From a virus, in the IMG/VR virus record IMGVR_UViG_3300042691_009100, positions 1 through 32,223 of that record: a stretch of DNA of 32,223 nt; one strand, written 5' to 3'. Under the pieces are notes generated by a model that made no database searches, was not told the origin of the DNA, and saw only the letters and a list, made by a program, of their open reading frames with translations. Positions 19,059 to 31,896 of the stretch are shown one piece after another. Numbering within the stretch: position 1 is the first letter of the stretch; every line of letters starts with the position of its first letter. Made by a program: the position numbers and the translations under genes.

Positions 19059-19099
19059 GCCGCGTCGGGACGGGTTCTCGGACGGGTTGTTGGGAATGC
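19059..19099. repeat. Short direct repeat GGACGGGTT upstream of promoter P1
   Basis: GGACGGGTT occurs at 19068-19076 and 19080-19088, 12 nt apart, directly upstream of the -35 at 19100. It could be a protein-binding repeat, but it has no counterpart at the other four copies of the promoter. Confidence 0.3.
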
Positions 19100-19129
19100 T
19101 TGACAGGCACTAGGCTGGTGTGGTAAGAT
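19100..19129 (+). promoter_or_regulatory. Promoter P1 (repeated type)
   Basis: TTGACA lies at 19100-19105 and TAAGAT at 19124-19129 with 18 nt between, and TGG directly precedes the -10. AATGC precedes the -35. ATG 19136 falls 7 nt after the -10, where transcription is expected to begin. A second in-frame ATG with the ribosome binding site GAAAGGAC lies at 19160. Confidence 0.85.
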
Positions 19130-19159
19130 ATAGTCATGGTAGAGAAAGGACAGACCACC

Positions 19160-19972
19160 ATGATCAACATCCAAACCGCAACACCCATTCAGATCGACAC
19201 GCAACTGCTGCGTGAGATGAGCCTCTACTGGCGCGCACGTCAGATGAAAGCGATGTACGCAGACGCAGTGCATGGCTACGTTGCCCACCAGTGCAAGTTC
19301 AACTACGCAGGCAACGGTACATATCGCAACGCAGAAGGCGAGTTCCTCACCACCGAGCGTGCACTGCAGATCGCACCCGACGTGATCGCACACAAAGGTT
19401 CATACGCTGCAACGTTGAAGCACCACCTCGATCTTTACACCCAGGAAAGCAACGAAGTGAAAGTGCACCGCGCACGCATCAACGAGTTGAATGAAGAGTT
19501 CACACGTCGCGGCGGCTGGACACGCTACTGGGCAGTGGTGTCGAGCGCAGGACACGTGCACAGCAGCACCGAGTGCTTCACGTGCAACAACGGTAAGAAC
19601 CCGACCGAGTTCGTGCTGTTCCCGTCGTTGAGCGGCAAGGATGTCGACGCTGCTGTTGCGAAGGTCGGTGCGACGCTCTGCTCGCACTGCTTCCCCACTG
19701 CACCAGTCGAGTATCGCGAGCAGGCTAAGGTTAGCAAGACTGCAGCGCAGGCGATGCGTGACAGCGGCGATGAAAAAGACTTCGATGCTGCGGTTGCGAA
19801 GGCAGCAGCGAAAGCAGCGGCGTCGTGTGGCGGTTCGGGCAAGGCTGGTCTCCAGGGAACGAATCACTGGCAGAAGTGCACCGAGTGCGACTACACGGCT
19901 CGTTCGGTGACGATGAGCGGAAAGCCGATTCACAAGTTGCCGCGCCACAAGCCCCATAGAAAGGTCGGGTGA
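19160..19972 (+). CDS. Cysteine-rich protein family of actinobacterial phages
   Basis: The 270-residue protein has a helical N-terminal half and a C-terminal half rich in cysteine pairs: GHVHSSTECFTCNN, then TLCSHCFPTAPVEY and CTECDYTA. It also holds an Ala/Lys-rich stretch (AAVAKAAAKAAASCGGSG). The arrangement suggests zinc-binding ribbons. The motif GHVHSS..C..C together with C..CFP.APVE recurs in actinobacterial phages with no established function. ATG 19160 has a good ribosome binding site. In-frame ATG 19136 would add eight residues (MVEKGQTT) and may be used in a leaderless way. Confidence 0.75.
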   Translation: MINIQTATPIQIDTQLLREMSLYWRARQMKAMYADAVHGYVAHQCKFNYAGNGTYRNAEGEFLTTERALQIAPDVIAHKGSYAATLKHHLDLYTQESNEVKVHRARINELNEEFTRRGGWTRYWAVVSSAGHVHSSTECFTCNNGKNPTEFVLFPSLSGKDVDAAVAKVGATLCSHCFPTAPVEYREQAKVSKTAAQAMRDSGDEKDFDAAVAKAAAKAAASCGGSGKAGLQGTNHWQKCTECDYTARSVTMSGKPIHKLPRHKPHRKVG

Positions 19973-19978
19973 TAATGC

Positions 19979-20008
19979 TTGACAGACCCTATATCGGTGT
20001 GGTAAGAT
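19979..20008 (+). promoter_or_regulatory. Promoter P2 (repeated type)
   Basis: TTGACA lies at 19979-19984 and TAAGAT at 20003-20008, separated by 18 nt, with TGG before the -10 and AATGC before the -35. The in-frame ATG pair is at 20015 and 20039. From the -10 to the second ATG it matches P1 with a single base difference. Confidence 0.85.
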
Positions 20009-20038
20009 ATAGTTATGGTAGAGAAAGGACAGACCACC

Positions 20039-20368
20039 ATGAAGATCACACACACGATCACCACAAGCACAGGCGATGCGATTCCTGCAATCGATAACAG
20101 CGTGTGGCGACAGAGCATCGAGCGCATCGAAGCGAACCGCCGCAGTCATCGCATCGGCTATCATGATTCAGAGGAATGCATGATGTGTGGGCGCAAGATG
20201 AGCCGCAAAGCACACGAGAACGCACGACACGTTCACATGACGATCGACGGTGATCTCGTGCCGATGGCTGCAGAAGTCGGCTCACTCTCGCAGGGTTGGT
20301 TCCCAGTCGGTAGTGAGTGCGCTAAGCGGTTGCCGAAAGGCTTCGCTGAGAAACCGTGGGTCGGGTGA
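20039..20368 (+). CDS. Zinc-finger-like small protein
   Basis: This protein of 109 residues contains CMMCGRKMSRKAHENARHVH, then DGDLVPMAAEVG, and WFPVGSECAKRLPKG. The CxxC pair, the histidines and the later Cys suggest a metal-binding site. Small proteins with C..CGR...H...DG.L.PV......GWFPVG.ECAKR.P are common in actinobacterial phages; their role is not known. ATG 20039 follows GAAAGGAC. In-frame ATG 20015 would add MVEKGQTT. Confidence 0.75.
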   Translation: MKITHTITTSTGDAIPAIDNSVWRQSIERIEANRRSHRIGYHDSEECMMCGRKMSRKAHENARHVHMTIDGDLVPMAAEVGSLSQGWFPVGSECAKRLPKGFAEKPWVG

Positions 20369-20373
20369 ATGAC

Positions 20374-20727
20374 ATGCAAGTGCACCGCATCTACAGGCTG
20401 CAAGTCTCAACACGGGCATTAGACGATCACGTAAGCAGACTTTATCAACGCATCGTCGTCGAACGTGAAAACGCAAAACGCATCTACACAGAGTTCTATC
20501 AGCATATAGACAACAACGAAGCGTTCATCATGATGATCAAAACGCTGAAGAACACTGCAACTGTGCGTGTCAGTCATGCCGCCATCATGGAACTGATCGA
20601 TGACCTGGCTTACCAGGCAGAGTTCAACGAGGACGACACCAGCCTGCGCAAGGCATGTCAACACGCGGTTCGCAGCCTTCGCAAACAGATGGCTCGCGAT
20701 CACGGCGTCGTCGTGGTTCCGAGATAA
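20374..20727 (+). CDS. Small helical hypothetical protein
   Basis: The protein has 117 residues if it starts at ATG 20374. GTG 20365 is an alternative that overlaps the previous stop by GTGA. It is mainly helical: IYRLQVSTRALDDHVSRLYQ, then VVERENAKRIYTEFYQHI, and DTSLRKACQHAVRSLRKQMA. I do not recognise a family or catalytic motif. Promoter P3 begins immediately after its stop codon. Confidence 0.6.
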   Translation: MQVHRIYRLQVSTRALDDHVSRLYQRIVVERENAKRIYTEFYQHIDNNEAFIMMIKTLKNTATVRVSHAAIMELIDDLAYQAEFNEDDTSLRKACQHAVRSLRKQMARDHGVVVVPR

Positions 20728-20730
20728 TGC

Positions 20731-20760
20731 TTGACACACATACCCTCGATATGGTAAGAT
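20731..20760 (+). promoter_or_regulatory. Promoter P3 (repeated type)
   Basis: TTGACA lies at 20731-20736 and TAAGAT at 20755-20760 with 18 nt between and TGG before the -10. ATG 20767 follows after 6 nt, and the second in-frame ATG is at 20791. This is the last copy before the purZ block, and it likely drives transcription into it. Confidence 0.85.
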
Positions 20761-20790
20761 ATATATATGGACAGAAAGGACAGCAATAAC

Positions 20791-21201
20791 ATGATCACCG
20801 ACTGGATAGCCGAACCAGCCTACTCACCAGAGGACGCAACCGCGAAGTTCAGGTGGTGGTGCGCTAACCACGGCGTCACCAAGGCATACGCAAACGTGAG
20901 CATTCGCGAACGTGCACTAATCCCATCCAACGTGCGAGTCGACATCGCAACGTTCTTCGCAAACGTGAACGCGACACCAGTGAAAGCAGAGGACCTGGTC
21001 ACACGCGTCATCAAGTGGTGCGAGCAGAACGTGTTTGCAGAAGTGACGACGCGCAAACTTGCTGAGGAGATGGGCTGCTCGCAGCACGTCGCACGTCGCA
21101 TCGTCAGCGACCTGCCTAACTACTTCAGGCGGCTGAACCAGTATAAGTATGAAGTGCGCGACTATAACATCGACAAAGCGCACGACCGCCGCACCGCGTA
21201 A
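20791..21201 (+). CDS. Winged-helix-like DNA-binding protein
   Basis: This protein of 136 residues contains a clear helix-turn-helix near residues 91-112: VTTRKLAEEMGCSQHVARRI, followed by a strand-like LNQYKYEVRDY that could form the wing. The N-terminal part (SPEDATAKFRWWCANHGVTK) resembles no family I know. It could be a regulator of the repeated promoters, which is speculation. ATG 20791 follows GAAAGGACAG. In-frame ATG 20767 would add MDRKDSNN. Confidence 0.65.
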   Translation: MITDWIAEPAYSPEDATAKFRWWCANHGVTKAYANVSIRERALIPSNVRVDIATFFANVNATPVKAEDLVTRVIKWCEQNVFAEVTTRKLAEEMGCSQHVARRIVSDLPNYFRRLNQYKYEVRDYNIDKAHDRRTA

Positions 21202-21231
21202 CACATCTAGGCTAAACTAGGGCAGGACACC

Positions 21232-21522
21232 ATGAAGTTCAGGGACAGGCGCGACGCTGCACGTCAAGCACGCATCGCACGCGAACAGCAAGAGCAGAAA
21301 GGACGCGACCGAGTCGCACAGTTCGCAGTCCTGGATGAGATCAACAAAGCGATCGAGGACGGCGACTACGTCACACTGACGTCACTACTGGAGATCGACT
21401 TCGCGTTGATCGCCGACATGACGATCACCGAATGGCAGCAAACCGTCATCGTCAGGCTGCACGACTTTTGCAGGTCGGTGGGCATCGAATATAAGTGGCA
21501 AACCAACAACGACAACGAATAG
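21232..21522 (+). CDS. Small charged helical protein
   Basis: The 96-residue protein begins MKFRDRRDAARQARIAREQ, a strongly basic helix, followed by LDEINKAIEDGDYVTLTSLL and a C-terminal part ending in NNDNE. No family is recognised. A possible -10, TAAACT at 21213-21218, precedes it, and AGGACACC gives a weak ribosome binding site. It is separated from purZ by 13 nt containing GAAAGG. Confidence 0.6.
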   Translation: MKFRDRRDAARQARIAREQQEQKGRDRVAQFAVLDEINKAIEDGDYVTLTSLLEIDFALIADMTITEWQQTVIVRLHDFCRSVGIEYKWQTNNDNE

Positions 21523-21535
21523 AAAGGCACATATC

Positions 21536-22663
21536 ATGACCATTCACGCCATCGTCGGCGGTCAGTTTGGCTCCGAAGCCAAAGGACACGTCGCCGCACA
21601 ACTGGCAACGCGACTGCGCACCAACACACTCGGCAAGAGGCTGCACCTCGTGCGCGTTGGTGGTAGCAACGCAGGACACAGCGCAGCCGCAGCAGACGGC
21701 ACGATCTGGGCGTTGCGCCAAGTTCCAGCAGCAGCCGTCGTCGACCTCGACGCCGCGCTCTATATCGCACAAGGAAGCGAGATCGACATCAGCGTACTGA
21801 CTAGCGAAGTTGACGCGCTCGACGCAGCAGGCTTCAACGTCAGCAGCCGACTCTACATCGACGCGAATGCGACCATCCTGGAGCCGCATCACATCGAACG
21901 TGAAAGCGGCAGCGACATCAACGCGCGCACAGGCTCAACGAGCAAGGGTATCGGAGCCGCACGCGCCGACCGACTGATGCGACTCGCACGCACCGCTGCT
22001 ATGGCGGTGGGCGACCTGTCCGATCTCGGTATGGTGTGTGAAACCGCAGGTATGTTCCAGGCTGCACACTTGCGGCAAGAGCACGTCGTCATCGAAGGCA
22101 CGCAGGGCTACGGTCTCGGGTTGCATACCCGTTTCTATCCGCAGACAACCAGCGGCGACTGCCGCACCGTCGACCTGCTCGCACAGATCGGCTATCTGCC
22201 GCTCAACCCGAGACAGCCACGCGAGATTCACACGTGGCTCGTGTTGCGCACCTACCCTATCCGCGTTGCAGGCAACAGCGGACCGATGGACAGCGACGAA
22301 CTCACCTGGGAGCAACTCGGTGAACGCACCGCAGGCTACGTCCAGCCAGAGCGCACCACGGTTACCAAGAAGATTCGACGTGTTGCAGAGTGGAACCCAG
22401 CCGTCGTCATGGAAGCGGTACAGGCAAACGGTGGAGTGGGCGACCACTTGCACCCGTGTCTGATGTTCGTCGACTACTTCGAGCCGAACCTCGCTAGTGA
22501 AACCGACGTGAGCAAACTGTTGCTCTACCCGAGCGCGCTGCGACAGATCAGACACTGCGAGATTCACATCGGCAAGCAGGCAGCGATGTACGGCACTTCC
22601 GCGAACACCGTCATGTTCAACAACACACAACTCGCCGCCACCGTGCGCGACTGGTCTATCTAA
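21536..22663 (+). CDS. purZ: PurZ: adenylosuccinate synthetase-like enzyme for 2-aminoadenine synthesis
   Basis: The 375-residue protein has the PurA-superfamily motifs. These are the P-loop region GGQFGSEAKGH (8-18), GGSNAGH (42-48), GSTSKGIGAARADR (133-146), EGTQGYGLGL (187-196) with YPQTTS, and TTVTKKIRR (274-282). Residue 13 is Ser, where PurA has the catalytic Asp of GDEGKGK; this substitution is the published hallmark of PurZ. PurZ condenses dGMP with aspartate to give the precursor of 2-amino-dAMP (dZMP). The length is close to phage PurZ and shorter than bacterial PurA (about 430). The downstream MazG-like gene supports the assignment. GAAAGGCAC precedes ATG 21536. Confidence 0.87.
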   Translation: MTIHAIVGGQFGSEAKGHVAAQLATRLRTNTLGKRLHLVRVGGSNAGHSAAAADGTIWALRQVPAAAVVDLDAALYIAQGSEIDISVLTSEVDALDAAGFNVSSRLYIDANATILEPHHIERESGSDINARTGSTSKGIGAARADRLMRLARTAAMAVGDLSDLGMVCETAGMFQAAHLRQEHVVIEGTQGYGLGLHTRFYPQTTSGDCRTVDLLAQIGYLPLNPRQPREIHTWLVLRTYPIRVAGNSGPMDSDELTWEQLGERTAGYVQPERTTVTKKIRRVAEWNPAVVMEAVQANGGVGDHLHPCLMFVDYFEPNLASETDVSKLLLYPSALRQIRHCEIHIGKQAAMYGTSANTVMFNNTQLAATVRDWSI

Positions 22664-22681
22664 ACAAGAAAGGGCAACAAC

Positions 22682-23005
22682 ATGCTAGGTAAGAGACAGA
22701 AACAACGACTCAACAACTGGTGGATTCAACACGCGACCGACGAAGTCGCCGCGATGTTGAAAAAACTGGACGAGTACGGAGCAGGCGACCTGCACGAGAT
22801 CGGCTACTCGATGGCGAAAGTCGCCAACCGAGAAGTCACACGTGAACAAGCATACGAACTCGGCATCATGTTCTATGCACTGGGCAAGATGCAACGCATC
22901 ATCAGCGCAGCAGAACAAGCACGCGAAGCATCAACCGACACGTGGCACGACCTCGCTGTTTACAGCAAGATGGTGCTCGCAAACCGTGCAGAGGTGATGC
23001 CATGA
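22682..23005 (+). CDS. MazG-like nucleotide pyrophosphohydrolase (candidate MazZ)
   Basis: This 107-residue, all-helical protein has the pattern of small MazG-like proteins of actinobacterial phages: LKKLDEYGAGDLHEIGYSMA (27-46), then EQAYELGIMFYALGKM (55-70) and DTWHDLAVYSKM (86-97). MazG-type enzymes hydrolyse NTPs or dNTPs to monophosphate and pyrophosphate. In Z-genome phages the MazZ branch turns dGTP into dGMP, the substrate of PurZ. The gene starts 18 nt after purZ with AAAGGGCAAC. Family membership is likely, and the dGTP specificity is inferred from position only. Confidence 0.65.
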   Translation: MLGKRQKQRLNNWWIQHATDEVAAMLKKLDEYGAGDLHEIGYSMAKVANREVTREQAYELGIMFYALGKMQRIISAAEQAREASTDTWHDLAVYSKMVLANRAEVMP

Positions 23006-23205
23006 ACAAAGGCTATGACGCAGTGAACTACTGCCACGCCGAAGTGCTGTACCGCGACCAGTTGCAGCAAGCACAACGACGCGCCAACATCTACGGCTAC
23101 ACCGAACTTGTCATCTGGCAAAGCGCAGACGGTACGCTCATCGACGAGCAGACCATCAAACCGAACACTGAACTGCAGACTGGAGCGCGCAACGTATGGC
23201 GTTGA
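23002..23205 (+). CDS. Small hypothetical protein
   Basis: This protein of 67 residues reads MNKGYDAVNYCHAEVLYRDQ and continues with a helix and a short strand pair, YTELVIWQSADGTLI. ATG 23002 overlaps the preceding stop (ATGA), and its 3' end overlaps the next gene by 10 nt, so it belongs to the same operon. I do not recognise a family. It may be an accessory to the nucleotide enzymes around it, by position only. Confidence 0.65.
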   Translation: MNKGYDAVNYCHAEVLYRDQLQQAQRRANIYGYTELVIWQSADGTLIDEQTIKPNTELQTGARNVWR

Positions 23206-24053
23206 TCTACCTCGCACATCCGATCGACAAGACGGGCGGCAACCCGATGGTCGTGGCGATGAGCATGCAGGACGAATTGCTGCAAAAAGACGGCATCGCA
23301 GTGTTCACACCAGCCGACGCATGGCAAGTGCGACCGCCACACGACGCACGAGTGCAACGCATCAACGAGCGTGCACTGCACGAGTGTGATGTTGTGTTGG
23401 TCTACTTACCAGCAGGTGTGTGGACGCGCGGTGTACCAGTTGAGATCACGATCGCTAACGAGCGCGGCATCCCAGTCGTGCTCGTGAGCGAGCAGGACGA
23501 GTCGTCACTGATCGAAACGTACTGGGCGAGCCACTACAACATCTACACGTACGAAGTCGACGAATATCGACAAGCGTGCGAGTGGGCAGCAACCCTGGGA
23601 CGCAACCGCGACAAGAAGAGCACGCTGAAGTTTGCGCGTTTCACTGGAGACAGCCACCAACTGTCGCAGGCGTTCACGGGTGACGCAGGGTTCGACCTGG
23701 CGTACAACGGTGACCAGCCGCTGGTGGTGGAGCCGCACACGATGGCACGCATTCCGACTGGTGTGTGTGTTGAGATGCCGCGCGGCATCTACGCTGTGCT
23801 CACTGGTCGCTCGTCGACGTTCTCCAAACGAAACCTGATCACACCGATGTCGGTGATCGATGAGGGCTTCCGAGGTGAACTGTTCGCGGTGGTGTGGAAC
23901 TTCGGAGACACACCGCAGGTGATCGAGCCGAAAGAGCGAGTCGTGCAACTGTTGCCAATGAACAACGTTGCTCGTGAGATAAACTGGCTACAGACTGCTG
24001 ATCTGTCACCGACCGATCGAGCCGACCATGGGTTCGGCTCATCGGGCAGGTGA
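23196..24053 (+). CDS. Nucleoside 2-deoxyribosyltransferase-like domain fused to dUTPase
   Basis: Residues 1-115 resemble nucleoside 2-deoxyribosyltransferases: IYLAHPID (4-11), ECDVVLVYLPAG (63-74) with the substrate Asp, and VEITIANERGIPVVLV (82-97), where E83 aligns with the catalytic Glu. Residues 143-285 form a trimeric-type dUTPase with all five motifs: DAGFDLA (163-169), GRSSTF (204-209), VIDEGFRGEL (220-229), RVVQLLP (248-254) and RADHGFGSSG (275-284). The second half hydrolyses dUTP to dUMP, keeping uracil out of DNA. The first half could exchange bases on deoxyribonucleosides or be a related hydrolase. Fusion of the two is unusual. Confidence 0.85.
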   Translation: MALIYLAHPIDKTGGNPMVVAMSMQDELLQKDGIAVFTPADAWQVRPPHDARVQRINERALHECDVVLVYLPAGVWTRGVPVEITIANERGIPVVLVSEQDESSLIETYWASHYNIYTYEVDEYRQACEWAATLGRNRDKKSTLKFARFTGDSHQLSQAFTGDAGFDLAYNGDQPLVVEPHTMARIPTGVCVEMPRGIYAVLTGRSSTFSKRNLITPMSVIDEGFRGELFAVVWNFGDTPQVIEPKERVVQLLPMNNVAREINWLQTADLSPTDRADHGFGSSGR

Positions 24054-24222
24054 TGAACATGCAGCCGCGTTCCTGTCCTACGCTGGCGCGTGTTCGCGGC
24101 GGCGTGGCGTTGGTTCCCCCACGTCACGCCGCCGCAGGCGTTTCTCTTGCGTTCCCTTGCATCGGAGAGGGGGGTAGGGCTATTCGAATACCCTCCGTCA
24201 AGAGAACGCAACGGAGAGCCTC
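24054..24222 (+). promoter_or_regulatory. Structured intergenic region with two large hairpins
   Basis: This 169-nt gap holds no gene. The first hairpin pairs 24096-24106 with 24125-24135 over 11 perfect G/C-rich positions and could terminate transcription of the nucleotide operon, although no T-run follows. The second pairs TTGCGTTC (24147-24154) with GAACGCAA (24204-24211). Inner complementary segments are CTTG/CAAG, CGGAG/CTCCG and a palindrome TATTCGAATA at 24181-24190 flanked by GGG and CCC. It ends against the ribosome binding site CGGAGAG (24212-24218) of the next gene. CCCTTGCATCGG at 24154-24165 echoes the repeats at 74-106. Confidence 0.6.
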
Positions 24223-24486
24223 GTGAAGGTCGCCGCGATCATCTACCTAGCGGTCGTAGCCGCGACCTACCCGACCGTCTACAAACACCTACGCAAACGG
24301 ATGGTCAAGACACGCGGCGCGTCGTTCGTCGTGCAAACCATCCTGGGCAGGCGGAAAACCGCGTACATCGCTCGCGTCACCGTCGTCTCACTCGCCATAC
24401 CGATCGTCGTGTTGGTTGCAGTCATCGCCACCTACACCAAACTGATCGCGCAAAGCATCCTCGATTCCGATACACCTACCAGTTAG
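24223..24486 (+). CDS. Small membrane protein with two membrane helices
   Basis: This 87-residue protein starts at GTG 24223, 4-5 nt after CGGAGAG. It has a hydrophobic N-terminus, VAAIIYLAVVAATYPTVY, a basic central part (KHLRKRMVKTRGAS, then GRRKTAYIAR), and a second hydrophobic segment, VTVVSLAIPIVVLVAVIATY. The function is unknown. Its start lies at the foot of a large RNA hairpin, so expression may be controlled by RNA folding. Confidence 0.65.
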   Translation: MKVAAIIYLAVVAATYPTVYKHLRKRMVKTRGASFVVQTILGRRKTAYIARVTVVSLAIPIVVLVAVIATYTKLIAQSILDSDTPTS

Positions 24487-24489
24487 GAT
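24484..24489 (+). promoter_or_regulatory. Possible -10 element (TAGGAT) placed for a leaderless start
   Basis: TAGGAT ends 7 nt before ATG 24497 of the nuclease gene. It also includes the stop codon of the previous gene. AGGA could instead be a weak Shine-Dalgarno sequence. There is no clear -35 upstream. Confidence 0.25.
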
Positions 24490-24496
24490 ACTGCAC

Positions 24497-25933
24497 ATGA
24501 CATCACCAAAACTAGCGAAAACAACACGAACAGGCAGAACATACAAACACCCAGTGACAGGCGCGGAATATCCGAGCGTCACTACAGTGCTCGGTATCGT
24601 CGGCAAAGGCGAGGCACTGAAACACTGGGCAGCAGGTGAAGTAGCCAAGTTCGCAGTCAACAACAAACAAGCGTGGCAAAGCCTCGACGACGCAGCAGCG
24701 ATCGACCTGCTGAAACGTGAACCGTTGCGATTCCTCGACCGTGCAGCATCACGCGGCACAGACGTACACGCACTCGCCGAAACATACGCCAAAACAGGAA
24801 CGATGCCACAGTGGGCTGACGAGATCAGCGGCTACGTCGCCGCGCTCAAACGGTTCTTCGACGAACATCAACCGCAGCCAGTGCTCGTCGAACACACCGT
24901 GTTCAACAGCGAGATCGGCTACGCAGGCTCGTTCGACATGGTGTGCAAACTACCGACGTTCGGCGACGAACTCGTGGTGCTCGACTACAAAACCAGCAAA
25001 GCGATCTACCCAGACGTCGCCGCACAACTCGCAGCGTACGCACACGGCACCGAGTACATCGACGACGACAAAGTACAGCCGATGCCTGCGATCGCACGCG
25101 GTGTCGCAGTGCGGCTCGCAGCAGACGCCACCTACGAAGTCATCGAATGCGATGTGAACGCAGGCTGGACGTACTTCAAAGCAGTGCGCGCAGTGTTCGA
25201 CATCCCGACCAAGCCGTTTCTCCTAGGTGACGTGCGACCGTCAGGAGAACGCAGCGACGAAGCACGCGCAGAAAAACGCGACTGGCTAATGAACCGAGTG
25301 CGGAAACTGAAAGAAGTGAACAGCGAAGCATTCGCCGCGTTCGCCGCACGCTGGTCACCAGCGATACCTACGTTCAAGTCGCAACACCAACACTCGTCGA
25401 TCGAACTGCGACAGATCGAACAACTGCTCGTCGAGATCGAACGCGACTTCAGCGTACCGTTCCACGAACACGTCGTACCGCCGAGCGTCAAACGACCACC
25501 ACAGATCGCGACACCAGCAGAGAAACCGATGCCGCCGAGCGACGACATCACCGTAGCGACAAACGACATCGAACTGCTGCGCATGCGACTCAACGACAGT
25601 GCGAACGCAGTGAAACTTACCGCGAAACGGCTAGCGAAAGAAGCAGCAGCAGTGAAACGCTCAGTGTCGCTCAGCGGCAAACCGTCGCTGCGTCGCTACA
25701 TGATCGTCAGCACCATGCTCGACTTCCTCGACGAGGACGACGGCAGCGGTGACACACTCGACGCCGCGCTACGTTACCTCGATATTCGAGGTGATGACAC
25801 GCTCGGCGCGGCAGTCGGCAACCTGGACATCGCCCAGGTACAACAGATGTCCAACGTGCTCGCACAACTGCGTGCAGGTACGTTGAACTTGCAATACATC
25901 AATGACACATTCACTATCACGGAAGGAAAGTAA
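24497..25933 (+). CDS. PD-(D/E)XK nuclease, RecB/Cas4-like exonuclease
   Basis: The 478-residue protein has the RecB-like nuclease series. It starts with YPSVTTVL and GTDVHALAETYA (residues about 89-100). The core follows: SEIGYAGSFDMVCKL with the metal-binding Asp, then ELVVLDYKTSK with the D-x-K pair, and AAQLAAYAHG. The C-terminal 200 residues are helical and unlike known domains. It probably processes DNA ends for recombination or replication, working with the OB-fold-like protein encoded next. No strong ribosome binding site precedes ATG 24497. Confidence 0.82.
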   Translation: MTSPKLAKTTRTGRTYKHPVTGAEYPSVTTVLGIVGKGEALKHWAAGEVAKFAVNNKQAWQSLDDAAAIDLLKREPLRFLDRAASRGTDVHALAETYAKTGTMPQWADEISGYVAALKRFFDEHQPQPVLVEHTVFNSEIGYAGSFDMVCKLPTFGDELVVLDYKTSKAIYPDVAAQLAAYAHGTEYIDDDKVQPMPAIARGVAVRLAADATYEVIECDVNAGWTYFKAVRAVFDIPTKPFLLGDVRPSGERSDEARAEKRDWLMNRVRKLKEVNSEAFAAFAARWSPAIPTFKSQHQHSSIELRQIEQLLVEIERDFSVPFHEHVVPPSVKRPPQIATPAEKPMPPSDDITVATNDIELLRMRLNDSANAVKLTAKRLAKEAAAVKRSVSLSGKPSLRRYMIVSTMLDFLDEDDGSGDTLDAALRYLDIRGDDTLGAAVGNLDIAQVQQMSNVLAQLRAGTLNLQYINDTFTITEGK

Positions 25934-25937
25934 CAAC

Positions 25938-26288
25938 ATGTCCATCAACTGGTCAGAGTTTGAGCGACCGACAGGCGACTTCAACAAGTGGAAGCCAGAA
26001 AACGAAGGTGACAGCATCAGCGGAGTGCTCACTGCGCTGCGCGTGGCTACGATGCCAGACGGTAACAAGTACCCGTCGCTCACCATCACCAAAGACGGAA
26101 CCGCCTACGAGGTGCTCGCATCACAGACTCAACTGCTGCGTCTGCTCGCAGACACCAAGCCCACCGTTGGCGACACCATCACGATCACGCACACACGTGT
26201 CGAGAAACTCGCAGGCAACAAGACGCTGAAGCACTTCGACGTCAAAGTGGCACGCGGTAAGAAGATCGACAGCGACGATCTCATCTGA
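25938..26288 (+). CDS. OB-fold-like protein, probable ssDNA-binding protein
   Basis: This 116-residue protein begins MSINWSEFERPTGDFNKWKP and is strand-rich: DSISGVLTALRVATMPDGN, SLTITKDGTAYEVLA, VGDTITITHTRVEKL and KTLKHFDVKVARGK. The pattern G.V........ G..YP.L.....G....V.......L......P..GD.I.I is that of small OB-fold-like proteins found beside phage recombination nucleases. ssDNA binding is inferred. ATG 25938 has the strong ribosome binding site GGAAGGAAAG, and its TGA overlaps the next ATG. Confidence 0.65.
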   Translation: MSINWSEFERPTGDFNKWKPENEGDSISGVLTALRVATMPDGNKYPSLTITKDGTAYEVLASQTQLLRLLADTKPTVGDTITITHTRVEKLAGNKTLKHFDVKVARGKKIDSDDLI

Positions 26289-26728
26289 TGCGCGACTTCA
26301 TCCACATGCGCGACAGCGATGCGCGTTGGATGGCGTACGCACTATGTAAGGGCAACACCGAGGTGGACTTCTTCCCAGACAGTATCACCTCGGTGGTTGC
26401 CACAAAAGCGATATCACTGTGCAACCGCTGCCCAGTACAAGACGCCTGTGCAAAGTACGCGATCGTCAACGACATTGAGTACGGTATCTGGGGTGGTTTA
26501 TCACCGCGCGCTAGACGTGAGATAGCATCATCACGTTCGACACGCGACCGTACACGCGAGATGCTCACATACAACACGTATAACAAACATCGTGCGGCAA
26601 ACCGCACCGACCCAGTGAAAGCAACAGCACGTGACCTCGGAATCTCAACAGCGACCGTCTACCACCACATCAGGCTCATCAAGTTCAAACTCATCTTCGA
26701 ACAACTGGGTGGTGATACACAGACGTGA
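26288..26728 (+). CDS. WhiB-like Fe-S protein with an added C-terminal HTH
   Basis: The 146-residue protein has four cysteines in WhiB arrangement, C20, C45, C48 and C54 (ALCKGN, LCNRCPVQDAC), which bind a [4Fe-4S] cluster. The turn GIWGGLSPRAR follows at 66-76. WhiB proteins usually work by binding the main sigma factor and are confined to Actinomycetota and their phages. After a basic linker, residues 108-134 (PVKATARDLGISTATVYHHI) form a helix-turn-helix that ordinary WhiB proteins lack. It may be a regulator that contacts both RNA polymerase and DNA. ATG 26288 overlaps the previous stop. Confidence 0.85.
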   Translation: MRDFIHMRDSDARWMAYALCKGNTEVDFFPDSITSVVATKAISLCNRCPVQDACAKYAIVNDIEYGIWGGLSPRARREIASSRSTRDRTREMLTYNTYNKHRAANRTDPVKATARDLGISTATVYHHIRLIKFKLIFEQLGGDTQT

Positions 26729-26840
26729 CCTCGCGTACATCATCACACTGATCGAACGTGTCGTCGCACGAGAAGAACAAGACACCATCGCCGCGTTACA
26801 CCACCGACTAACACAAACCCTGAAAGGAACCAAACAATGA
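26709..26840 (+). CDS. Very small helical protein
   Basis: This short frame of 43 residues starts at GTG 26709 (or GTG 26712), inside the last codons of the WhiB gene. It reads VIHRRDLAYIITLIERVVAR, then a helical stretch ending in TQTLKGTKQ. Its stop overlaps the next ATG (ATGA), and it fills a gap of about 110 nt that would otherwise be empty. There is no good ribosome binding site, so translation would depend on coupling. It is a probable but not certain gene. Confidence 0.45.
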   Translation: MVIHRRDLAYIITLIERVVAREEQDTIAALHHRLTQTLKGTKQ

Positions 26841-27088
26841 GCGACATCGACCCTAGAATCCACGACTACGAACGTACACTCGAAGAACTGCGCACCCACA
26901 AAACGATGCTGATCGACCGCATCGACGCGTTAGTGAACGAGTTCGACACACTGCGCACCATGAACACGAAACTCGCGAAAGAAGTGAACGAATACGCCTA
27001 CCGCGAGAAACTGTTAGTGCAAACCATCGACCAACTGCGCAGCGACAACGCACGGCTCAACATCGCACTGCAAACGGGCGAACAATGA
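26837..27088 (+). CDS. Coiled-coil protein
   Basis: This 83-residue protein is one long coiled coil after a short start: ERTLEELRTHKTMLIDRIDA, then a segment with LVNEFDTLRTMNTKLAKEV and LLVQTIDQLRSDNARLNIAL. It could be an adaptor or dimerising factor in the replication block. CTGAAAGGAACC gives a strong ribosome binding site, and the stop overlaps the next start (ATGA at 27085). Confidence 0.7.
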   Translation: MSDIDPRIHDYERTLEELRTHKTMLIDRIDALVNEFDTLRTMNTKLAKEVNEYAYREKLLVQTIDQLRSDNARLNIALQTGEQ

Positions 27089-27300
27089 ACGAGAAGTATC
27101 TGCTCACCGTCACCACACGCGAAAACTGGAAACACGAAGCGACACGCAAACAGATCGAACACAGTCTCGCTAGAGCGTTACCAGCAAACGCGACAGTGGT
27201 AAACTCACAATGGCTCGGCACAACAGACCTCGATCTCGCAGTGTGGGGACCGATGTGCCGATACACCATCGTCTACACGGAAGGAACAGCCGATGCCTGA
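27085..27300 (+). CDS. Small hypothetical alpha/beta protein
   Basis: This protein of 71 residues reads MNEKYLLTVTTRENWKHEAT, then a helix RKQIEHSLARALP and strands TVVNSQWLGTTDLDLAVWG, RYTIVYTEGT. The strand-helix-strand layout suggests a small compact fold. I recognise no family. It overlaps the previous gene by ATGA and the next gene by 8 nt. Confidence 0.65.
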   Translation: MNEKYLLTVTTRENWKHEATRKQIEHSLARALPANATVVNSQWLGTTDLDLAVWGPMCRYTIVYTEGTADA

Positions 27301-27508
27301 ACAGTTCACCATCACCTGCATGTGGTGTAAAGCGAAAGTCGTGCACAACCTGCGACACCTGGAAGGCTGCAACTGCGACCCAGACTCACCATACTGGTGT
27401 TACATCGACAAACACGGCACCCCAGGTGGACTACGACTCGCCAAGTTCAAACCACAACGTACACGTGTTGTGGTAGCCTTAGAAGATGGCGAACAGGAAC
27501 AAGACTAA
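27293..27508 (+). CDS. Small cysteine-rich zinc-ribbon-like protein
   Basis: This 71-residue protein has cysteines in the pattern CMWCKAK ... LEGCNCD ... YWCYID, which suggests one zinc-binding site. The end is acidic (EDGEQEQD). The function is unknown. ATG 27293 follows the strong ribosome binding site GGAAGGAAC, and the 3' end overlaps the resolvase-like gene by 23 nt. Confidence 0.65.
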   Translation: MPEQFTITCMWCKAKVVHNLRHLEGCNCDPDSPYWCYIDKHGTPGGLRLAKFKPQRTRVVVALEDGEQEQD

Positions 27509-27884
27509 AGGAGACCGTGCAGAACGTGCACTCGCCACACTCCTCACCGAGACACTCGGCAAACCGATGCGCAGGATGTTGGGAGCAGGACGGAAAGACG
27601 ACATCGGCGACATCGACGGCATCGACGACACCGCGATACAAGTAAAACACTGGACAAACATCACCGCCGCCATCACCGAAGGCATCAAACAACTAACACA
27701 ACAGCAAACAAACAAAAAAGCCGAAAACGGTGTACTGTTCATCAAACACCGCACACACGGCTGGTTAGCAGTGACGACGTTAGAACAATGGACAAGGACA
27801 GAACATGAACGACAACATCACACTCGAATGGGCGATTCACTACGCGAAACTCGGCTACCGAGTTATCCCGATCAGACCACGTGA
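27486..27884 (+). CDS. Holliday-junction-resolvase-like nuclease (PD-(D/E)XK)
   Basis: This 132-residue protein starts NKTKGDRAERALATLLTETL, then RMLGAGRKDDIGDIDGIDD followed by TAIQVKHW. The series KG...E......L.........G.GR.DDIGDI......IQVKH matches small PD-(D/E)XK resolvases, with the acidic D-x-D and the Q-V-K strand. It should cut branched DNA during replication or packaging. A TAGCCT hexamer with TGG before it ends 6 nt from ATG 27486. The last 26 codons overlap the primase-polymerase gene by 80 nt. Confidence 0.7.
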   Translation: MANRNKTKGDRAERALATLLTETLGKPMRRMLGAGRKDDIGDIDGIDDTAIQVKHWTNITAAITEGIKQLTQQQTNKKAENGVLFIKHRTHGWLAVTTLEQWTRTEHERQHHTRMGDSLRETRLPSYPDQTT

Positions 27885-29946
27885 GAAACGACCACCGATC
27901 GCCGCATGGCAAGACGCCGCAACAACACAAACAGGAACCATCCAAGCATGGTGGACAGGACGGTACGCTGACCACGGCATCGGTATCGTCACAGGCACAC
28001 TCGACGACGGTACACGGTACATCGCGCTCGACCTCGACGAACACAACCCGACCAGCAGCGGAACCGCAACCCTGGACAGGCTCCAGGAACGCCACGGAAG
28101 GCTTCCCGAGACCGTCGAAGCCAAAACAGGTAGCGGCGGCACTCACCTGCTTTTCAGGCTAAAGGAAAGCCACGGAGACATCTCCAACGGGGCAGGAAGA
28201 CTGCTAGGTGCAGGAATAGATGTAAGAGCGGTCAACGCACAGATCGTCGTCGCACCAACCGTCCATCCGAACGGCAACGAATACCGCTGGGTAGACGGAC
28301 ACGCGCCAGGTGAGATCGAGATGGCAACCCTACCCGACTGGGTTGCCGACATCATCACCACCAAAGAACAACAAACCGCCACATCAACGGTGAACACACG
28401 CACCGAGGACGACGTCGACACACGCGCAGGTACAAGGTTCAACCGCGAAACACGGTGGGACGACCTGCTACTCAACGACGGGTGGACACCGCACCACACA
28501 GAGAACGACGTCTACTACTGGACACGACCCAACAAGTCAGTGCGCGACGGCGTCAGCGCAACCGTCAACCACAACGGCAACGACAACCTCACCGTGTTCA
28601 CAACATCGATCAGCAACCTACCGCCAGGTTCATACGACAGGTTCGGCTACTGGACACAAACACGACACAGCGGCGACTTCAAAGAAGCAGCACGCCAACT
28701 CAACGCACAAAACGACCAACAGATCGCACAATGGGTGTCCACCATCCAGTCCGAACAACCACCACAACTGGTCACACCAGAGAACCGAAACGACGACCCA
28801 CTCACCACGTGGTACGTCGACTGGCAGAAACTGTGGACCGACGACACCACCGACCAAGAATGGCTCATCGAACCCATCCTCGCCAAAGGACGAGCACACG
28901 CACTGTACGCAGGAGCAAAAAGTGGCAAAAGCCTGCTACTGCTCGAACTTGCAGCCGCGCTCGCATCAGGACGACCAGTGCTCGGCAAACCAGCACAACC
29001 ACCGATCGACGTGCTATACATCGACTTCGAGATGACAGCAGCAGACGTACGCGACCGACTCGACGCATTCGGCTACAGCATCGACGACAACCTCACAAAA
29101 CTGCACTACGTGCTCCTACCATCGATCGCAGGTCTAGACACACAAGAAGGAGCACGCGCAGTAATCGCCGCCATCAAAGCAACCAACAGCAAACTCGTCA
29201 TCATCGACACCACAGCACGAGCAGTAGAAGGAGAAGAAAACGACGCCGACACCATGCGCGCGTTCTACCGCTGGTCAGGCGTCAACATGAAGTCACTCGG
29301 CGTCACCTGGATACGAGCAGACCACGCAGGCAAAGACACCAGCAAAGGACAACGAGGAACCAGCGCAAAAAACGACGACGTCGACGTGGTGTGGAAGTTC
29401 ACGAAACGCAGCCTCACCTCGATCTTGATCGAATCCACACACCGACGTATGCAGTGGGTTCCAGACAAAGTCGAACTGGAACTGCGCGAGATCGACGGCA
29501 AACTGTCTCACCACCTGCTCGGTGACGAGTTCAGCGACGCCGCGATCACCGCAGCCGCCGACCTCAACATGTGTAAAGCACCCATCGACATCACCATACG
29601 CGCAGCCAGATCACTACTCAAAGAACACGACATCAAGTGTGGTAACGACATCCTTGCGCAGGCTATCAAACTACGCAAACAGAAAGCGGCAAACGGCAAC
29701 GTCGACGCATGGCTAGGGACCATCGACGAGAGCGTAACAAAAGACGGAACACGTTCGGAACAAACCGTAACAAACGACCTGCGTAACACGCGCGGAACAA
29801 ACCTTCCGACCGCGTCGTTACGCGGCGTAACACGTTCGGAACACGACGTAACACACTCTAGCGGTTCTGTTACGGCTGTTCCGCGCTCTATAGAGCGGAA
29901 CGCCAACGGAACACCACAGTTCGACGACCTGGACGAGATATTCTAG
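27805..29946 (+). CDS. Primase-polymerase (AEP) fused to RepA-like helicase
   Basis: The 713-residue protein has an N-terminal bifunctional primase-polymerase domain: GIGIVTG (58-64), YIALDLDEH with the metal-binding D76 and D78, GSGGTHLLFRL with H114, and GIDVRAVNAQIVVAP (137-151). Residues 340-560 form a RecA-fold ATPase of the RepA type: GAKSGKS Walker A (370-376), VLYIDFEM, LVIID Walker B (464-468) and the ADHAGKD.....RGTSAK motif. It is the only polymerase-like protein visible, so it probably primes, copies and unwinds the phage DNA. ATG 27805 follows AAGGACAG. The last 70 residues are low complexity and lie over a dense repeat cluster. Confidence 0.88.
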   Translation: MNDNITLEWAIHYAKLGYRVIPIRPREKRPPIAAWQDAATTQTGTIQAWWTGRYADHGIGIVTGTLDDGTRYIALDLDEHNPTSSGTATLDRLQERHGRLPETVEAKTGSGGTHLLFRLKESHGDISNGAGRLLGAGIDVRAVNAQIVVAPTVHPNGNEYRWVDGHAPGEIEMATLPDWVADIITTKEQQTATSTVNTRTEDDVDTRAGTRFNRETRWDDLLLNDGWTPHHTENDVYYWTRPNKSVRDGVSATVNHNGNDNLTVFTTSISNLPPGSYDRFGYWTQTRHSGDFKEAARQLNAQNDQQIAQWVSTIQSEQPPQLVTPENRNDDPLTTWYVDWQKLWTDDTTDQEWLIEPILAKGRAHALYAGAKSGKSLLLLELAAALASGRPVLGKPAQPPIDVLYIDFEMTAADVRDRLDAFGYSIDDNLTKLHYVLLPSIAGLDTQEGARAVIAAIKATNSKLVIIDTTARAVEGEENDADTMRAFYRWSGVNMKSLGVTWIRADHAGKDTSKGQRGTSAKNDDVDVVWKFTKRSLTSILIESTHRRMQWVPDKVELELREIDGKLSHHLLGDEFSDAAITAAADLNMCKAPIDITIRAARSLLKEHDIKCGNDILAQAIKLRKQKAANGNVDAWLGTIDESVTKDGTRSEQTVTNDLRNTRGTNLPTASLRGVTRSEHDVTHSSGSVTAVPRSIERNANGTPQFDDLDEIF
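29733..29901. repeat. Iteron-like repeat cluster inside the 3' end of the primase-helicase gene
   Basis: CGTAAC occurs at 29733, 29766, 29782, 29826 and 29847, and its complement GTTACG at 29817 and 29869. A perfect 15-nt direct repeat, AACACGTTCGGAACA, lies at 29748-29762 and 29829-29843. A near-palindrome with centre CGCTCTATAGAGCG and flanks GTTC/GAAC covers 29878-29901. This density in 170 nt is far above chance and is what an initiator-binding region or replication origin looks like. Origin function is inferred. Confidence 0.6.
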
Positions 29947-29980
29947 ATAGGGTTTAGGGCATATCCCCCATCCCCCCCGA

Positions 29981-29999
29981 AACCCCGTCAGACGGGGTT
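29981..29999 (+). terminator. Hairpin after the primase-helicase gene
   Basis: AACCCCG (29981-29987) pairs with CGGGGTT (29993-29999) around the loop TCAGA. It lies 34 nt after the stop codon and just upstream of promoter P4, a good place for a terminator, although only TTG follows instead of a T-run. A run of seven C lies at 29972-29978. Confidence 0.5.
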
Positions 30000-30004
30000 G
30001 TGGT

Positions 30005-30064
30005 GAGAATGCTTGACACGATAGACTTGGTAGTGGTAAGATAGAGATATGGACAACAAGGAGA
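30005..30064. repeat. 60-nt perfect direct repeat, copy 1 (contains promoter P4)
   Basis: Positions 30005-30064 and 30364-30423 are identical. The repeat starts upstream of AATGC, includes the -35, spacer, -10 and first ATG, and ends within the Shine-Dalgarno segment. Confidence 0.9.
30013..30042 (+). promoter_or_regulatory. Promoter P4 (repeated type)
   Basis: TTGACA lies at 30013-30018 and TAAGAT at 30037-30042 with 18 nt between and TGG before the -10. The in-frame ATG pair is at 30049 and 30073. Transcription is expected to begin at or beside ATG 30049. Confidence 0.85.
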
Positions 30065-30072
30065 CCACCACC

Positions 30073-30363
30073 ATGAAACGATACACCAGCCGCATCGCAG
30101 TCGGAACCATGATCGCAGGACAAGCAGCCGCCGACCTCAAAGTAGGCGACTTCCTCATGTGGAACTACGGCTACATCACCGAGATCGTCGCGATCACACC
30201 CAAAGGCAAGACCCAGATGATCGTCACCGAACGCGACCTCGGCATGGGTGGCAAGAAGCCCAGCGGTAAGGATTACAGCCGCACACTGAAGCGCAGCACC
30301 ACCGTCGTCCGTGTCGAGCCGACCGAGCGTGGTCACTTCCGCAACGCCAACATCAGCCTGTAA
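30073..30363 (+). CDS. Small hypothetical protein of the late-window early-type block
   Basis: This 96-residue protein begins MKRYTSRIAVGTMIAGQAAA and is strand-rich: LKVGDFLMWNYGYITEIVAI, PKGKTQMIVTERDL, then KRSTTVVRVEPTE. The pattern V..GD......GY..EI..I.P.GKT recalls small barrel-like proteins of actinobacterial phages without known function. ATG 30073 follows AAGGAGACC. The in-frame ATG 30049 would add MDNKETTT. Confidence 0.65.
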   Translation: MKRYTSRIAVGTMIAGQAAADLKVGDFLMWNYGYITEIVAITPKGKTQMIVTERDLGMGGKKPSGKDYSRTLKRSTTVVRVEPTERGHFRNANISL

Positions 30364-30423
30364 GAGAATGCTTGACACGATAGACTTGGTAGTGGTAAGA
30401 TAGAGATATGGACAACAAGGAGA
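30364..30423. repeat. 60-nt perfect direct repeat, copy 2 (contains promoter P5)
   Basis: This is identical to 30005-30064, exactly 359 nt downstream. Together the two copies flank the gene at 30073-30363, so recombination between them would remove one gene and one promoter cleanly. Confidence 0.9.
30372..30401 (+). promoter_or_regulatory. Promoter P5 (repeated type)
   Basis: TTGACA lies at 30372-30377 and TAAGAT at 30396-30401, 18 nt apart, with TGG before the -10. The in-frame ATG pair is at 30408 and 30432. Confidence 0.85.
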
Positions 30424-30431
30424 TCACCAAC

Positions 30432-30677
30432 ATGGACAACAGCATCGAAGCCCAGGAACGTTGGAGCCGCCAAACCATCAAAGCACACAAGATCATCAAA
30501 GTCGTGCTTTTCGGAACCAAAGAGCAAAAGATCACACAAGCACACCTTGACCTGGTCGTTTACTTCCACAACCGCATGAGCAAAACCACCACCTACTGGA
30601 ACGGTTCACGTCACGCAGTCTACGCAGCCAGGGCTATCGACAAGATGACCAAGCAACTCGCCGCCACCAACAAGTAA
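30432..30677 (+). CDS. Small helical hypothetical protein
   Basis: The 81-residue protein is basic and helical: IEAQERWSRQTIKAHKIIKV, then ITQAHLDLVVYFHNRMSK and AARAIDKMTKQLAATNK. No family is recognised. ATG 30432 follows AAGGAGATC. The in-frame ATG 30408 would add MDNKEITN. It is likely an early gene by its promoter type. Confidence 0.65.
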   Translation: MDNSIEAQERWSRQTIKAHKIIKVVLFGTKEQKITQAHLDLVVYFHNRMSKTTTYWNGSRHAVYAARAIDKMTKQLAATNK

Positions 30678-31702: not shown

Positions 31703-31709
31703 TAAGTGA

Positions 31710-31715
31710 TAAGAT
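31710..31715 (+). promoter_or_regulatory. Possible -10 element (TAAGAT) placed for a leaderless start
   Basis: TAAGAT, with TGA before it, ends 7 nt before ATG 31723. The hexamer is the same as in the five repeated promoters, but no TTGACA lies at the right distance. No Shine-Dalgarno sequence precedes the ATG. Confidence 0.4.
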
Positions 31716-31722
31716 GCTCGTC

Positions 31723-31896
31723 ATGGACGAGCAAACAACGAAACAACTGCGACCGTGTGGAACATATGCGGCAGCACGACGCCACCAGCGGAAGCATGAA
31801 CCCATGTGCACTGCTTGCAAAGCGGCTATCGCCGCAAGACAGCGAGCGTTCTACCACCGTCGCAAAGCGGAACGCGCCACACGTGCCGATTCTTAG
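31723..31896 (+). CDS. Small zinc-finger-like protein
   Basis: The 57-residue protein reads MDEQTTKQLRPCGTYAAARR, then HQRKHEPMCTACKAAIAAR and a basic tail. The pattern CGTY.....H.R..E..C..CK.A is familiar in small actinobacterial phage proteins and predicts one zinc site. Function is unknown, though such genes often sit near HNH endonucleases. ATG 31723 has no ribosome binding site; a -10-like TAAGAT lies 7 nt upstream. Confidence 0.65.
   Translation: MDEQTTKQLRPCGTYAAARRHQRKHEPMCTACKAAIAARQRAFYHRRKAERATRADS

Follow-up and report, generated by a model that had tools for sequence, protein, structure and literature searches.

Repeated phage promoter modules that pair a putative leaderless start with an in-frame Shine-Dalgarno-led start

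Introduction

Several described systems come close to the arrangement reported here. Leaderless mRNAs of mycobacteria and corynebacteria share with it a TANNNT -10 element at the right distance, A or G at +1 and a 5'-terminal AUG or GUG, and in these hosts an extended -10 is linked to higher activity (PMC3898074, PMC4633059, PMC3890552). In M. tuberculosis, the centre of the -10 motif lies 7-12 bp upstream of the start, and a purine at +1 and T at +2 are favoured (PMC3898074). GTG is the sole other codon reported for leaderless starts in mycobacteria, and in M. smegmatis reporters a +1 RTG and a +30 codon led by a Shine-Dalgarno (SD) sequence were used within one construct library (PMC4633059). 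Compared with these mRNAs, most of the phage modules add an in-frame SD-led start, and the whole is repeated as a module.

The 5'-terminal-AUG mRNAs of E. coli likewise carry a 5'-AUG and a downstream SD-led AUG on one mRNA, but those that were tested had been selected to be out of frame, each being a small ORF of its own, whereas the phage frame is kept (PMC4965119). Leaderless 'isoform' ORFs of M. tuberculosis have a 5'-RUG in frame with the annotated gene, so that an extended or truncated isoform results; these are, however, scattered host genes, some of them mis-annotations, in contrast to a recurring, frame-kept phage module (PMC9094748). As far as the available text of two phage reports goes, the start-associated and extended start-associated sequences (SAS/ESAS) of cluster K resemble our modules as repeated start-site elements with a promoter before several small phage genes, although a 5'-AUG module is not described there (PMC11373665), and the predicted leaderless SigA promoters of cluster O mycobacteriophages share the sigma-A type and a +1 on the first base of the start codon, but are leaderless only, with no paired SD start reported (PMC4351075).

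Results

Five modules of one design

The window, that is, the whole stretch of DNA analysed, is the IMG/VR virus record IMGVR_UViG_3300042691_009100 (32,223 bases). An earlier note on this DNA had described five promoters of identical geometry, with TTGACA at 19100, 19979, 20731, 30013 and 30372, and all five were found there. At each site (5/5), AATGC and TTGACA precede an 18-nt spacer with TGG at its end, after which come TAAGAT, 6 nt and an ATG (ATG1); a second, in-frame ATG (ATG2) begins 24 nt after ATG1, with 21 nt between the two, again in 5/5 modules. The N-terminal extensions that it had listed are also present: MVEKGQTT (twice), MDRKDSNN, MDNKETTT and MDNKEITN. The features are as follows.

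19095-19129, + strand: promoter 1; AATGC, -35 TTGACA at 19100-19105, 18-nt spacer ending TGG, -10 TAAGAT at 19124-19129
19136-19162, + strand: start region 1; ATG1 at 19136 (expected transcription start), eight codons MVEKGQTT, SD AAAGGA, ATG2 at 19160
19136-19972, + strand: gene 1; 278 aa from ATG1; phrog_2433/15500, unknown function
19974-20008, + strand: promoter 2; AATGC, TTGACA at 19979, TAAGAT at 20003-20008
20015-20041, + strand: start region 2; ATG1 at 20015, MVEKGQTT, SD AAAGGA, ATG2 at 20039
20015-20368, + strand: gene 2; 117 aa from ATG1; weak HNH-like match (phrog_8660, E 0.005)
20726-20760, + strand: promoter 3; AATGC, TTGACA at 20731, TAAGAT at 20755-20760
20767-20793, + strand: start region 3; ATG1 at 20767, MDRKDSNN, SD AAAGGA, ATG2 at 20791
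20767-21201, + strand: gene 3; 144 aa from ATG1; kept directly before PurZ in relatives
30008-30042, + strand: promoter 4; AATGC, TTGACA at 30013, TAAGAT at 30037-30042
30049-30075, + strand: start region 4; ATG1 at 30049, MDNKETTT, SD AAGGAG, ATG2 at 30073
30049-30363, + strand: gene 4 (family A); 104 aa from ATG1; orthologues in L206, L208, L257 and L258
30367-30401, + strand: promoter 5; AATGC, TTGACA at 30372, TAAGAT at 30396-30401
30408-30434, + strand: start region 5; ATG1 at 30408, MDNKEITN, SD AAGGAG, ATG2 at 30432
30408-30677, + strand: gene 5; 89 aa from ATG1; without a family match

The SD before ATG2 is AAAGGA or AAGGAG, 9-10 nt separating GGA from the ATG. The window contains five matches to TTGACA-N15-20-TAAGAT-N6-ATG, against none in 100 dinucleotide shuffles. 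Because the modules at 30013 and 30372 are near-identical copies and those at 19100 and 19979 have almost the same leader, the window holds about three independent leaders. Judged by sequence, ATG1 lies at the predicted transcription start, 6 nt after TAAGAT, in all five modules, as expected of leaderless actinobacterial mRNAs, in which ATG or GTG should stand 6-8 nt past the -10; the centre of the -10 hexamer is about 9-10 bp from the A of the ATG. On the same grounds, and with a 5' end that is itself predicted, the modules of the window fall into the E. coli 5'-uAUG class.

Two other candidates were tried and rejected. No unusual structure, such as would point to a structured regulatory leader, emerged when the 5' ends were folded as RNA. 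For the cluster K comparison, the 13-bp SAS gave one match with three mismatches in the window (at 21947), which is not at a module gene and is fewer than expected by chance.

The frame is kept while the spacing varies

A scan of viral_contigs with the TGC-TTGACA consensus gave no match and the gene 1 protein had no relatives there, so that relatives were sought via the PrimPol/AAA protein, which led to the contigs L206, L207, L208, L209 and L258. A further five (L193, L225, L231, L239 and L257) were reached via promoter patterns blind to frame, whereas relatives of the capsid protein were left out because most lack this promoter. Ten related contigs were thus compared, several of which are fragments.

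We defined a dual module as an ATG or GTG 6-7 nt after the -10 plus an SD-led ATG downstream. All 17 dual modules of the group are in frame and without a stop between the starts; they represent 15 distinct leaders, although 15/15 overstates their independence, the modules being related by descent. The earlier note had read the paired ATGs as a leaderless plus a leadered start, a reading at odds with any relative that keeps the promoter and loses the frame; in the relatives, 12/12 dual modules have kept it. Conservation of the 24-nt spacing, which it had proposed to look for, did not hold, since there are seven spacings (18, 21, 24, 27, 30, 33 and 39 nt) and divisibility by three alone is kept. 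As to both ATGs persisting in relatives, they do so in the dual modules (in L231 one ATG1 is replaced by GTG), but some orthologues keep ATG1 alone and others the SD-led ATG alone.

The GGA of the SD occupies all three phases relative to ATG1 across the dual modules and, as the spacing also varies, a fixed SD block does not account for the frame. In every dual module a purine run of the AAAGGA or AAGGAG type stands 4-12 nt before ATG2 (GGA-to-ATG 7-10 nt), the range that is the common SD-to-start spacing in C. glutamicum. Where no RTG occupies the ATG1 position, four of eight distinct modules are in register (Fisher p 0.008 versus dual). Common descent reduces the weight of this contrast; within the orthologous families A, B and F the length has changed at least four times, each time by a multiple of three.

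Dual and single-start orthologues

Three members of family A are dual (those of the window, L208 and L257), that of L258 lacks both SD and ATG2 and is leaderless-only, and the L206 member is leadered-only. L206:12212 and L207:2086 belong to one family and are both dual, whereas its L258 member is leaderless-only. Gene 1, dual in the window, has a relative in L257 that carries ATC where ATG1 would be. The existence of leaderless-only orthologues indicates that ATG1 can be the sole start. The window itself offers two comparators.

31707-31896, + strand: leaderless-only comparator; TGATAAGAT, 7 nt, ATG at 31723; small conserved gene without SD, the same in five relatives
27471-27884, + strand: probable leaderless-only comparator; TGGTAGCCT, 6 nt, ATG at 27486; small conserved gene

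The gene starting at 27486 we take to be resolvase-like. In 6/6 contigs for each gene, an extended -10 precedes the start by 6-8 nt, and a convincing SD, looked for across the same contigs, was not seen.

The leaderless-only orthologues and these two genes with leaderless-type starts would also suit the exclusive use of ATG1, the AAGGA motif and ATG2 being chance or decayed internal sequence. We regard this as highly improbable, given that SD and ATG2 are present together or absent together, that leadered-only modules retain both without ATG1, and that the SD remains at a near-optimal distance from ATG2 even as the total length varies. The retention of the SD is a point against the use of both starts too, as it would be hard to explain if leaderless starts alone sufficed.

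Alternatively, the 5'-AUG could be a ribosome-docking (standby) signal that boosts the SD-led ATG2, protein coming almost entirely from ATG2 and the frame rendering stray starts harmless. There is a precedent in E. coli ptrB, where expression of the downstream coding sequence needed the 5'-uAUG and not translation of its ORF (PMC4965119), and SD and ATG2 are kept in every dual module. However, docking would not call for a frame, and one is kept; the group includes leaderless-only orthologues, and mycobacteria translate from any AUG or GUG at the 5' end (PMC4633059). On balance we find docking rather unlikely.

Phage, host and gene-turnover hotspots

The capsid protein of the window is akin to mycobacteriophage capsid proteins (37% identity), and a WhiB protein, a PrimPol/AAA protein and a PurZ-type synthetase are also encoded. 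The WhiB gene and the mycobacteriophage-like capsid protein make an actinobacterium the likely host; a search for a host genome of this phage found none.

Small variable genes stand behind the TTG-18-TGGTAAGAT promoter at two conserved places, one ahead of PurZ and one following PrimPol/AAA. Both are hotspots of gene turnover (19100-20793 and 30013-30434 in the window; L206-L258), where small genes with their own promoter are swapped among relatives. Because family A is found before PurZ in L206, L257 and L258 and after PrimPol/AAA in the window and L208, genes appear to travel from hotspot to hotspot as units with their promoters.

The PurZ-type synthetase (21536-22663 in the window; phrog_1211, E 2e-72; NCBIfam PurZ 299.8 bits against a cut-off of 300) is encoded near a dUTPase fusion and the PrimPol/AAA gene. 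The phage DNA may carry 2-aminoadenine (Z) for adenine, and the promoters might then be read with Z in them. Directly after PurZ, a small ORF (22682-23005) is kept in five relatives at 44-61% identity; it has no match in Pfam, PHROGs or NCBIfam and is a candidate partner of PurZ.

Wider survey

IMG/VR was scanned, blind to frame, for TTGACA, an extended -10, 6 nt, ATG and then AAGGA within 33 nt, and non-redundant clusters with a downstream ORF of at least 40 codons were kept. Among the matches listed, 42/70 clusters are in frame, with 12 and 16 in the other frames (p ~4e-6); among those listed on contigs of at least 50% GC, 11/14 are in frame. As a control, ATGs of comparable leaders that lie at offsets other than 5-8 were counted, and 43/119, about a third, are in frame. 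One contig, L311 (IMGVR_UViG_3300031911_000024; 62% GC), has eight TTG-type/extended -10/6-nt/ATG modules, mostly starting MIN or MIK, four of them dual and in frame and four leaderless-only; no protein tie to the group of the window was seen. Exceptions are L283, L291 and L301, each with one in-frame dual module and an out-of-frame copy, such that out-of-frame or stopped ATG1s do occur in other phage groups. As judged from these contigs, the frame rule is strong in the window's group and a tendency elsewhere.

These data also bear on the idea that a promoter-plus-ribosome-site cassette was simply copied about, ATG1 being untranslated and the frame shared by descent. The pairs 30013/30372 and 19100/19979 are clear copies and the modules sit in two hotspots, which speaks for such copying. 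Nevertheless, the spacing has changed repeatedly, by multiples of three with ATG1 and not so without it, the same design recurs in L311 and there is an in-frame excess among the IMG/VR matches listed, so that we consider mere copying very unlikely.

No dual module was seen in ten cultured actinophages searched whole. They gave a few promoter-pattern matches with a start 6-7 nt after the -10, and the three inspected in sequence look like plain leaderless genes. The proteins of L311, L285 and L283 had no useful cultured relatives.

Two side observations may be added. In the low-GC phage contigs L338, L364, L377 and L384, a repeated 5'-ATGATGAGAAAT leader is out of frame with a large SD-led gene (of 414 codons, for example), and is possibly a short upstream ORF that has been conserved, the reverse of what the window shows. 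In the Curtobacterium phage Parvaparticeps (MZ357096, 342-686), promoter-like sequence surrounds the annotated start at 342, and a leaderless ATG at 354 is the better fit.

Discussion

From the module geometry, the frame kept despite length changes, the single-mode orthologues and the hotspot location, we infer that transcription starts at ATG1, that both starts are used and that the phage benefits. It is probable that one 5'-AUG mRNA is initiated both at a leaderless ATG1 and at an SD-led ATG2, giving two N-terminal isoforms. A strong sigma-A-type promoter (TTGACA and the extended -10 TGGTAAGAT) would start transcription on the A of ATG1, so that the mRNA begins with 5'-AUG, at which an intact 70S ribosome could initiate without a leader. 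Canonical initiation at the SD-led in-frame AUG 18-39 nt downstream would yield a protein shortened by about 6-13 residues. We favour dual initiation on a single mRNA as the best reading because the placement of the -10 in the window fits the spacing of M. tuberculosis leaderless genes. It would also be the simplest explanation of the frame: if 5'-AUG initiation truly occurs, ribosomes out of frame would waste the transcript and disturb ATG2, and as such initiation would be unavoidable in these hosts, it must stay in frame.

The extensions are hydrophilic and variable, and in the model of gene 4 residues 1-6 of the extension have very low prediction confidence, as disordered tails do. The two isoforms therefore probably do the same job, and the extension is probably dispensable for function. 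What the phage would gain is most likely that its small accessory genes are expressed robustly whichever route is taken, and not a second kind of protein. Any advantage beyond that, for instance expression when ribosome pools are altered, is speculative.

Leaderless mRNAs, phage leaderless promoters (PMC4351075), E. coli mRNAs with a 5'-AUG plus SD (PMC4965119) and M. tuberculosis leaderless isoforms (PMC9094748) were already known, and mycobacteria provide an example of each ingredient of the module. A repeated module in a phage that holds its frame through changes in length did not turn up in the open-access literature, to which the search was confined.

Gene callers name one start per gene, and the N-termini in many environmental phage genomes may thus be mis-assigned; the +1 ATG geometry offers a marker of transcription starts from sequence alone. 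The dual, leaderless-only and leadered-only orthologues of one gene form a test set for why leaderless or SD initiation is used in actinobacteria. It is tempting, if doubtful, to suggest that phages of leaderless-translating hosts have repeatedly evolved a frame-locked, dual-mode start cassette, by which the expression of accessory genes might survive, or switch mode, as the host initiation machinery changes in infection.
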